Source of the DNA: an uncultured Acidobacteriota bacterium
Lineage (GTDB): Bacteria > Acidobacteriota > UBA6911 > CAINFC01
Assembly (NCBI GenBank): GCA_903847975.1
Contig: CAINFC010000050.1
Span: 1-64,000 of the forward strand
Direction: 5' to 3'
DNA length: 64,000 nt
Shown here: piece after piece, positions 41,783 to 52,427 of the stretch
Numbering within the stretch: the stretch's first letter is position 1
How the letters are laid out: the number at the start of each line of letters is the position of its first letter
Position numbers and translations under genes: made by a program
The notes under the pieces: generated by a model
Databases searched by the model: none
Told to the model about the DNA's origin: nothing
The model's input: only the letters and a program-made list of their open reading frames with translations

Positions 41783-42017
41783 CGTTTTGTCCTATCGAAA
41801 ACAAAAAAACATCGAGCCGGTTTCCTCGATGGGAATTCGTTTGCTGTGCTGTCTGCCTGTCGAATCGAACCGGCTCCGCTTCCTCGTTTGTTAACAGTGG
41901 ATAACCTGGTTGCATTTATATGGATCGGCAAACGTTTTCGGATATTTTCTTACCATTTCGCAAGTATACGATGCGGTCACGACGAAATCAAGGAAAAAGG
42001 GGGCATCGTATACTGAA
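41783..42017. other. Gene-free segment with a diverged repeat arm and a 12-bp perfect inverted repeat
   Basis: The right arm of the inverted repeat (about 41920-42000) faces the one at 40160-40243. AGTATACGATGC (41963-41974) and GCATCGTATACT (42003-42014) are perfectly complementary over 12 bp with a 28-nt loop, ending 3 nt before the truncated IS copy. No gene is seen. The arm pair brackets the two exported-protein genes. Confidence 0.55.
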
Positions 42018-42503
42018 CTTGGAGACTGAAATCCATCTGACGAAGGATTGGAGCTACCTTCTCATGGCTGATCGGGTGGTGTCTTCCGGTAAGTTCCTTC
42101 GACAGGGTCCGCGTACTTTTACACGTCCAACGCAACGGTGACTCGGGATCTCCGCGTGTAGTCGGTTTAATCAACATCTCCAAGCTTTGTGCCAGTTCAG
42201 GATCTTGTTTTAATATAGTGGGTCGCCCTGCTCCTGGACGTCGAATCCTTCCCCCCGTCAGGGGTTCTTCTTCCAGTTCTCGTATTCCTTTCGTAATGGT
42301 AACCCGGGATAATCCGCAGTATCGGCTTACTTTGGAAATGCCGCCATATCCAATTTGACGAGCCTCCGTTGCGGCAACCATGCGTCGGGTTCTCTCGTCC
42401 AAGTGTGGCCAGAGTAGTCTGAATTTATTCTGGAGTGAATCGGCCTTGACCATGCATCAAGCATACATCCATTTACCTTATTTGTTAAGCTTATATATTG
42501 ACG
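42018..42503 (-). mobile_element. Truncated second copy of the ISAzo13-type element
   Basis: Sequence from 42018 to 42503 matches 38487-38972 of the complete element almost base for base, ending with the same terminal repeat (TTATATATTGACG). The transposase half from 42453 down is the N-terminal 145 or so residues (including IGYGGISKVSRYCGLS). The C-terminal catalytic part and the left terminal repeat are missing, so the copy cannot transpose by itself. A few substitutions separate it from copy 1, so it is not a very recent duplication. Confidence 0.85.
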
Positions 42504-44402: not shown

Positions 44403-44807
44403 GTGATCAAAGCATGGTGGCCCGCCTGGCTGATCATGGCGGCCATTTTTATCAACTCCTCCATTCCCAAGGAGAACCTACCGGACTTCGGATCGTGGGA
44501 CCTTCTTTCCAAGAAGAGCGCCCACTTCATTGAATATTCCATCCTGGGTGCCGCCTACCTGCGAGGGTTAAGCTACAAAAAGGCCCCGGTACGAGCCCAT
44601 GTTTTCCTCGGGATCCTCTTCGGATTTCTTTATGCCTTTTCGGATGAATGGCACCAGAGCCGGGTGCCCGGCCGTCAGGCTTCCCTGATGGACGTCGCCA
44701 TTGACACCCTGGGAAGCGGCGCCGGAGCCTGGGCCTGGGCATTCTTCTCGCGCAGGAAAACGGAGCGGAACCCAACCGCTCCCGATTCGGCTGTCGACCT
44801 TTCATAA
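44403..44807 (+). CDS. VanZ-like membrane protein
   Basis: The 134-residue protein starts at GTG 44403. Several membrane segments (WWPAWLIMAAIFINSSI, AHVFLGILFGFLYAF, GAGAWAWAFF) carry the VanZ-family motifs KSAHFIEYSILGAAYLRG and DEWHQSRVPGRQASLMDVAIDTLGSG. VanZ was first known from teicoplanin resistance, but most homologues are of unknown function. GAGG precedes the GTG. The reading frame of the next gene begins 5 nt downstream of the stop, so the two are probably co-transcribed. Confidence 0.88.
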   Translation: MIKAWWPAWLIMAAIFINSSIPKENLPDFGSWDLLSKKSAHFIEYSILGAAYLRGLSYKKAPVRAHVFLGILFGFLYAFSDEWHQSRVPGRQASLMDVAIDTLGSGAGAWAWAFFSRRKTERNPTAPDSAVDLS

Positions 44808-44811
44808 TCAC

Positions 44812-46617
44812 TTGCCGCCCTCTTCCTACCGTCAAAAGCCCGAATTGCCGGCTCCCTCGAACGGAGAGCTTTCTCTTTCCTGGCAGCGCGCAGCGCTGAT
44901 CGGCGGGGTCTGGGGCTCGCTGGAAATCATTCTGGGCAGCTTTCTGCATAACCTGCAGATCCCTTTTACCGGCACGCTGCTGGCTTCCGTCGGCATTTCT
45001 CTTTCCGTGGCCAGCCAGATTCTCTGGCGCCAGCCGGACATTATCTGGCGTGCCGGGGTGATCTGCGCCATGATGAAATCCGTCTCCCCCAGCTCCATGA
45101 TCCTCGGTCCGATGATCGGCATCGCCGGCGAGTCTTTTTTGTTGTATGGCTGCGTTTTTCTTTTCCAGCCGCACCGGCTTTCCTTCTGGCTCGGCGGCAT
45201 GCTGGCCGCAATGATGCCGCTCATTCAGAAGACCGTCAGCTATCTTTTCACCTATGGCTGGGATTTTGCCCGGCTCTACCTCCAGGTCTACCGGTTCGCT
45301 GCCGGCAGCCTGCATGTAACCGACCTGGGCCCCCTGGATCTGATTTATGCGCTGCTGCTCGGCAACGCCCTGCTGGGAGCGGCCGCAGCCGAAGCCGGCA
45401 TTCGCCTCGGACGAAACGTCACCGCTTCCCCTCCCTCCTCTTCCGCTCTGCCGGATGCCGCCGGTGCGGTGGAAGCACCTTTTTCAAGCCCCCCGACCCG
45501 GAAATATTCTCTGCGCTGGCTGGCTTTTCATCTAGCCGCCGTTGCCGGCACGCTGCTTTCTTTGCCCCGTCTGCCCTGGTGGGCGGGAGCCGCAGCCGTG
45601 TCTCTCTACCTCCTGGCCTGCCTGTACCGCTATCCCCAGGCCCTGCGGCGCTTCCGGCAGCCCCGCCTATGGATCGAGCTGACCGTGATCAGCCTGCTGG
45701 CCGGCTGGCTGCTGAGCGGATGGTCCTCGACGGAAGGAAGCGGCCTCCGGCCCTGGGAAGGATTGCGCATCGGCTTTTTCATGGTGTTGCGGGCCGTACT
45801 GGTGGTGTTCGGTTTCGCCTCGGTCAGCGTCGAGCTGCGCAATCCCCAAATCGTCAACTGGCTCTTGAATCGCGGCATGGGCCAGTTTTCGGCCGCCCTG
45901 CAGATTGCCTTCCGCACCCTGCCTGCCATGACCGCTCTTATGGGAAAGGAAAAAGCATTTCTCCGCAATCCTTTCCAGGCCATGGCGCGCATGCTGGCGG
46001 CGGCCCGGACACTGCCGGCTGTAAATCCGGGCAGCGAGCCTCCTTTCGCTCCCACGATTCTGCTCACCGGGCCGCGCGCTTCGGGAAAAACCCAGTTTCT
46101 TTTATCCCTGGCCGAGGAGCTCCGCTCCCGCGGAATCCCGGCCGGCGGGATCCTGGCACCTGGCATCTGGCAGGAGGGAAGGCGCTCGGGCTATGATCTG
46201 CTGGAACCTCTTCCTAACCGGCAAATGCCGCTGTGCCGGCTGGATCCCCTGGCAGGGGGAATCTGCATTGGACCGTTTCATTTTGACCCGGCGGCTATCG
46301 CCGCAGGGCGGCAGGCTTTGACGTCCGCCGCATCCGGCCGCCTGCCGGTCATTTTCGTGGACGAGATCGGCCCTCTGGAAATGCAGGGGCAGGGCTGGGC
46401 CCCGGCGCTGGAAGTTGCTTTGGGAAAACCGGCTTCCCTCCTGGTTTTGGTGGTGCGCCCGGAGCTGGTGGATGCGGTGACCCGGCGATGGGGCTTCCGT
46501 CCCCGCCACATTTGGCACGCCGGCCACATCGACCTGCCGCAGGCCATCGCCCATCTGCAGGGGCTCATCCCCGGCGATTCCGCTTTCGCGGAAATACCCT
46601 GCCTTACCCAGGAATAA
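44812..46617 (+). CDS. Membrane protein with ECF-like segments fused to a THEP1-type NTPase
   Basis: The frame gives about 601 residues from TTG 44812 (start uncertain; the open frame reaches back into the VanZ gene and no clear Shine-Dalgarno is seen). Membrane segments occupy about 30-200 (GSLEIILGSFLHNLQIPFTG, GPMIGIAGESFLLYG) and 235-400 (WEGLRIGFFMVLRAVLVVFG, LQIAFRTLPAMTAL). The second block resembles the CbiQ/EcfT transporter component, the first a substrate-binding-type S component, though neither match is strong. The C-terminal domain has Walker A GPRASGKT near 420-427 and Walker B FVDEIGPLEMQG, as in THEP1/NTPase_1 proteins. It may be a self-contained transport- or nucleotide-related fusion. 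The function is unknown. Confidence 0.72.
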   Translation: MPPSSYRQKPELPAPSNGELSLSWQRAALIGGVWGSLEIILGSFLHNLQIPFTGTLLASVGISLSVASQILWRQPDIIWRAGVICAMMKSVSPSSMILGPMIGIAGESFLLYGCVFLFQPHRLSFWLGGMLAAMMPLIQKTVSYLFTYGWDFARLYLQVYRFAAGSLHVTDLGPLDLIYALLLGNALLGAAAAEAGIRLGRNVTASPPSSSALPDAAGAVEAPFSSPPTRKYSLRWLAFHLAAVAGTLLSLPRLPWWAGAAAVSLYLLACLYRYPQALRRFRQPRLWIELTVISLLAGWLLSGWSSTEGSGLRPWEGLRIGFFMVLRAVLVVFGFASVSVELRNPQIVNWLLNRGMGQFSAALQIAFRTLPAMTALMGKEKAFLRNPFQAMARMLAAARTLPAVNPGSEPPFAPTILLTGPRASGKTQFLLSLAEELRSRGIPAGGILAPGIWQEGRRSGYDLLEPLPNRQMPLCRLDPLAGGICIGPFHFDPAAIAAGRQALTSAASGRLPVIFVDEIGPLEMQGQGWAPALEVALGKPASLLVLVVRPELVDAVTRRWGFRPRHIWHAGHIDLPQAIAHLQGLIPGDSAFAEIPCLTQE

Positions 46618-46659: not shown

Positions 46660-46760
46660 TCCCCCATGTTACAGTGTCGACGGCTTGAGTGGTGCAATTT
46701 CTCTATCATTTCGGCACAGCCGATGATCCATTCAGGATTAAACCGGATTTGGGAGGCATG

Positions 46761-52423
<5,663 letters not shown>

Positions 52424-52427
<4 letters not shown>

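Follow-up and report, generated by a model that had tools for sequence, protein, structure and literature searches.

The locus and its three-domain protein

The window analysed here is a stretch of 64,000 nucleotides from an uncultured Acidobacteriota bacterium (assembly GCA_903847975.1, contig CAINFC010000050.1, positions 1 to 64,000). It encodes a protein in which two membrane blocks precede an NTPase domain, and the gene is present as a single copy in its 8.1 Mb genome. The features of the locus are as follows:

44403-44807, forward strand: VanZ-like gene; its end lies 4 nt upstream of the fusion gene's TTG
44812-46617, forward strand: S-T-NTPase fusion gene, an uninterrupted frame of 601 codons (601 aa) with a TTG start at 44812
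44875-45426, forward strand: block 1, S-component-like membrane domain, aa 22-205 (profile comparison, model and alignment)
45511-46011, forward strand: block 2, CbiQ/EcfT-like T domain, aa 234-400 (profile comparison and model)
46045-46566, forward strand: block 3, THEP1-type P-loop NTPase (PF03266), aa 412-585 (Pfam and model)
46069-46092, forward strand: Walker A motif GPRASGKT, aa 420-427, conserved among relatives
46360-46380, forward strand: Walker B region DEIGPLE, aa 517-523, conserved among relatives as DExGP

Alternative TTG starts of the fusion gene are possible at 44845 or 44701. Co-transcription with the VanZ-like gene is possible, and no functional link between the two is known. 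A hybrid sensor kinase of exceptional length (1912 aa; 46689-52427, forward strand) starts 71 nt after the fusion gene; its AAA-type N-terminal part, PAS, kinase, receiver and Hpt regions were named by eye from the translation. A short ORF of 158 aa (41977-42453, reverse strand) resembles, by eye only, the N-terminal part of an ISAzo13-type transposase and is probably a truncated insertion sequence.

The whole-chain AlphaFold model (84 sequences; pLDDT 88, pTM 0.78) has a helical bundle at aa 22-205, a second bundle at aa 234-400 and the NTPase at aa 412-585. No Pfam family matched the membrane part, and NCBIfam likewise recognises just the NTPase. The latter matches the Pfam family NTPase_1/THEP1 at aa 416-553 (E 5.5e-15, 56 bits against a curated cut-off of 23.9) and, with its Walker A and DEIGPLE motifs, resembles THEP1 nucleoside-triphosphatases (PF03266; 2i3b, 1ye8); known members are soluble single-domain proteins, whereas here the domain is joined to an S-T membrane protein or encoded by a gene next to it. 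The initial annotation, made from the sequence, had read the protein as one chain combining an S-like block, a CbiQ/EcfT-like block and a THEP1 NTPase, and this arrangement is real: all three lie in the single 601-codon frame, and the C-terminal domain is THEP1 by a match above the curated cut-off.

The likeness of block 1 to S components is borne out by structure and by profile comparison. In a whole-chain Foldseek search, unspecific helical matches dominated and the THEP1 domain alone was significant, so block 1 was modelled separately (pLDDT 94). Its top PDB match was YkoE (5edl; probability 1.00, TM 0.59/0.57); the S chain of 4hzu also matched (TM 0.54/0.60), while the remaining matches were mostly at TM near 0.2; as the E-value for YkoE was just 0.06, the fold assignment rests on the TM-score and on the way S proteins stand out. 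A PDB profile search with the S profile (A9) gave nothing useful, and there is no sequence match to YkoE. The profile of block 1 aligned with stand-alone S-like genes of ECF-type operons at an hhalign probability of 99.7% (E 3.5e-27), and its conserved residues are W34, E38, H46, N47, P51, R80, M88, K89, P93, S94 and E107. By its model, block 1 is an S-component fold, homologous to the S genes of ECF-type operons.

Block 2 lies below Pfam detection: the window protein has no direct CbiQ match, CbiQ does not rank among the 25 leading Pfam families across the 84 members, and a PDB profile search with the T profile (A5) gave nothing useful. It does align with the T proteins of ABC-containing operons (profile match 94.8%, E 4.9e-8), one of which (G256) is CbiQ by Pfam at 25.6 bits against a cut-off of 25.0. 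Conserved residues of the block are M324, R327, A328, F335, E341, N344, P345, L370, P371 and P387. The T proteins of the ABC operons carry a C-terminal AAALRG-type motif, which resembles the EcfT coupling motif; this motif is missing from block 2 of the window protein and from the fused family. From these profile comparisons, block 2 is judged with moderate confidence to be related to the T components of ECF-type operons.

Fused, split and ABC-bearing relatives

A scan of named genomes yielded at least 430 confirmed relatives. The best 80 of them, whose loci are compared below, come from Bacteroidota, Ignavibacteriota, Chlorobiota, KSB1, Neomarinimicrobiota, Gemmatimonadota and Acidobacteriota. 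Within the window's own phylum, three fused homologues (G355, G271, G301) and one split pair (G044) were found. A missed start could have made the NTPase of the window protein look fused when it was a separate gene, but the same S-T-NTPase chain occurs in 61 of 84 aligned relatives, the other 23 being membrane-only. A THEP1 gene lies in the flanks of 14 of the 23 unfused loci. Split relatives have overlapping or adjacent gene pairs; in G044 the membrane gene overlaps the NTPase gene. A maximum-likelihood tree shows at least six switches between the fused and the split state and places the window protein in a well-supported set with Ignavibacteria-type proteins.

Five remote relatives (G256, G373, G379, G168, G299) match block 1 alone and are stand-alone genes of 190-220 aa in operons where a double ABC ATPase and a T protein are encoded as well. 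In G373, G379 and G168 and, judging by length, in G299, this T protein has a C-terminal THEP1 domain, while the NTPase of G256 is a separate gene. At the window locus, no ABC ATPase pair is encoded with S and T; any ABC ATPase occurs within 3 kb at just 4 of the 80 loci, and none of these resembles a dedicated partner. ECF transporters are defined by a pair of ABC ATPases, and as this pair is absent from the locus, we do not class the window protein among them; its S and T parts are of ECF type, and it probably works in the manner of such a transporter.

The closest known system is YkoEDC, the group I ECF thiamine transporter with the S component YkoE, the T component YkoC and the double ABC ATPase YkoD (PMC5037267). 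Block 1 shares the YkoE fold, and the remote relatives share the gene set with a double ABC ATPase; in contrast, the window type lacks the ABC ATPase, carries S, T and the THEP1 NTPase on one chain and is linked to the molybdenum cofactor (Moco), not to thiamine. The metal transporters CbiMNQO and NikMNQO are similar in their T component (CbiQ, PF02361), as seen in the one relative above the CbiQ cut-off, but have another S component, and neither CbiN nor CbiO has a counterpart here. Of all partners, the NTPase stays with the system most consistently, whether ABC-bearing, fused or split, and the predicted enzyme therefore probably acts directly with the S domain, either as a transport drive or in ligand processing. 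A two-gene unit at L144:7512-8667 (forward strand) consists of an S-like gene and a THEP1 NTPase gene; no T or ABC gene lies alongside, and the unit is a possible minimal form of the system.

Molybdenum cofactor genes, riboswitches and Moco synthesis in carriers

Molybdo- and tungsto-enzyme genes adjoin the relatives. While vitamin or nucleotide genes had been named in the initial annotation as the neighbours to look for, the comparison of neighbourhoods brought out a link to Moco, which had gone unseen there, as had the ABC-ATPase-bearing relatives. Molybdenum-related genes occur at 34 of the 80 loci, and neither such a gene nor a Moco riboswitch was found in the examined flanks of 33. MobA is present at 17 loci, mostly on the same strand and ending 24-111 bp upstream; same-strand MobA, MocA, XdhC or DUF364 genes end no more than 150 bp upstream at 19. 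Other recurrent neighbours are MocA, XdhC, xanthine dehydrogenase, YgfK/SsnA, DUF364 and a PhsA-like oxidoreductase with FeS and NrfD partners. Similar surroundings are found around the remote S genes: operons of the order XdhABC-S-DUF364-XdhC-NTPase with MocA (L143, L152, and L148 in part), adjoining molybdopterin oxidoreductases of PsrA/PhsA type (L138, L150), nearby aldehyde ferredoxin oxidoreductase (AOR) with ThiF (L139, L142) and a preceding FdhD (L146). The window's own locus has no molybdenum gene among its neighbours and no Moco riboswitch by Rfam or by the model R1 run without filters.

At 14 of the 80 loci, a Moco riboswitch immediately precedes the gene or its operon. RF01055 scored above the gathering threshold directly upstream of the gene at nine (L044 and eight of Neomarinimicrobiota type: L059, L060, L061, L065, L074, L075, L082, L099), and at L091 it precedes an operon in which the S-T gene comes after a TonB receptor gene. 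R1, a model built from the Rfam-positive loci, adds L096, L077, L054 and L049; in 1.41 Mb it has 14 matches, each on the same strand as the gene and immediately before the gene or operon, with none elsewhere, and 10 of these 14 loci were in its training set. RF01055 also precedes a TonB-dependent receptor next to a remote S gene in three Acidobacteriota genomes without MoaC:

L139:7765-7889, reverse strand: Moco riboswitch directly upstream of a TonB-dependent receptor
L142:8801-8929, forward strand: Moco riboswitch directly upstream of a TonB-dependent receptor
L151:9516-9636, reverse strand: Moco riboswitch directly upstream of a TonB-dependent receptor

These three receptors are candidate outer-membrane Moco receptors. 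TonB receptors are used for ligands whose size or scarcity rules out uptake through porins (PMC11658791), and vitamin uptake has been inferred earlier from a riboswitch together with a TonB receptor (PMC5317091).

Many carriers appear unable to make Moco. MoaC is absent from 24 of 50 carrier genomes and MoeA from 21, most MoaC-less carriers also being without MoeA; many carriers are metagenome-assembled genomes, so that a missing gene may be unassembled, completeness is known for Acidobacteriota alone, and moa/moe genes often cluster, so that one lost contig can remove them together. Examples without MoaC include L033, L041 and L053, with MobA and a molybdenum oxidoreductase beside the gene, L035 and L038, with a xanthine dehydrogenase cluster, and L044, L059, L065 and L074, with the riboswitch. 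Among 40 genomes tested for PF06463, the MoaA C-terminal domain, it was missing in those without MoaC, except for a weak match in G413; the domain is a weak marker in Bacteroidota, and MoaC was therefore used as the marker. In the Bacteroidota carriers G411, G412, G414, G424, G425 and G428, the part matched by PF06463 is confined to positions of about 45-110, in frames that stand next to MoaC and are 266-272 aa long, from which it appears that Bacteroidota may have a short, divergent MoaA.

The Acidobacteriota served as a control, with MoaC found in 338 of 396 genomes. By the S profile 26 are carriers, 13 of them MoaC-less. Among well-assembled genomes, carriers make up 11 of 38 without MoaC and 11 of 300 with it (p = 2.5e-6), although carriers within a taxonomic family do not count as independent; at genus level the enrichment has a p of 1e-3. 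PF01568, taken as a sign of molybdenum enzymes, matched in 10 of the 13 MoaC-less carriers, a count to which the Moco-independent proteins NuoG and ActB may contribute, and more weight was therefore given to gene neighbours; the three others (G049, G241, G283) have xanthine dehydrogenase genes inside the S operon. The window genome has two MoaC and two MoeA matches.

A putative cofactor importer and its alternatives

Moco riboswitches, MobA/MocA/XdhC neighbours and genomes unable to start Moco synthesis are together best explained by uptake of Moco or molybdopterin. The family is proposed as a putative one-chain inner-membrane importer of the molybdenum (or tungsten) cofactor or its pterin part, a reading that we consider reasonably probable and for which we infer the substrate, direction and energy source. 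For the window protein, this function would be carried over by homology from its relatives. Since MoeA is also missing in most MoaC-less carriers, metal-loaded Moco is favoured as the ligand; G355, G420 and G422, which lack MoaC and keep MoeA, might import molybdopterin.

In such a system, a TonB-dependent receptor would, in some species, bring the molybdenum pterin through the outer membrane, and block 1 would take it from the periplasm, with block 2 as the scaffold for its movement. The cytoplasmic THEP1 domain would bind and split NTP, either driving the movement or keeping the cofactor inside, and may take over from, or help, the ABC ATPases still found in remote relatives. Once inside, the cofactor would be completed by MobA, MocA and XdhC and delivered by them to enzymes. 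Import would be the sole source in species without Moco synthesis, and salvage in the window's species, with its MoaC and MoeA.

The alternative that survives best, though unlikely, is import of molybdate or tungstate by an ECF-like substitute for ModABC/TupABC. Moco riboswitches also precede molybdate transporters (PMC2408646), the gene neighbours fit molybdenum supply as well, and the Bacteroidales carriers and the window genome make Moco. Against this, molybdate would be useless to the Moco enzymes of carriers without MoaA, MoaC and MoeA, and the presence of TonB receptors, as neighbours or under control of the same riboswitch, points to a ligand that is large or scarce. ModABC and TupABC are similar in riboswitch control and molybdenum neighbours, but the proteins are unrelated, and many carriers here cannot make Moco from molybdate.

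Another reading, which we regard as improbable, is a membrane protein that handles Moco without importing it, such as a membrane-bound MobB-like NTPase or sensor passing Moco to exported enzymes. Adjacent MobA, TatC and exported molybdenum enzymes would suit it, as would weak MobB matches through the P-loop region in 26 of 84 members; S and T homology, the ABC-containing operons, the TonB receptors and the carriers without Moco synthesis all speak against it.

Group II ECF systems usually share ABC ATPases that are encoded at another site, and the window protein could likewise belong to a conventional ECF transporter with an accessory THEP1 domain, as the remote relatives hold a double ABC ATPase and a T-NTPase together. 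The scarcity of ABC ATPases near the 80 loci, the lack of another CbiQ in the window genome and the absence of the ALRG-type motif from the fused family leave little room for this explanation. The nucleotide-gated channel suggested in the initial annotation, to which nothing but the joining of a membrane part to an NTPase would point, is very improbable, given that fold and homology indicate ECF parts and that many relatives encode the NTPase separately.

Returning to cofactor import, Moco is commonly treated as made by each cell itself, and no bacterial Moco importer or uptake route, nor any paper on the S-T-NTPase family, was found in the literature searched. Dietary Moco uptake has been described in Caenorhabditis elegans (PMC9793310), where ready-made Moco is likewise acquired, but by an animal. 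That the family would represent the first bacterial importer of ready-made Moco, its THEP1 NTPase replacing the ECF ABC ATPases as a new drive for S components, is put forward tentatively and may well prove too strong. If true, many lineages without moaA and moaC would be Moco auxotrophs fed by their neighbours, Moco riboswitches in such genomes would gain a reason, and ECF-type transport could run on another NTPase.

Genes of the DUF364/DUF4213 family, labelled 'putative heavy-metal chelation', were also observed beside the S gene at L152:8696-9421 (forward strand), L022:7826-8632 (forward strand) and L044:13889-14599 (reverse strand), and their products may bind or carry Moco.
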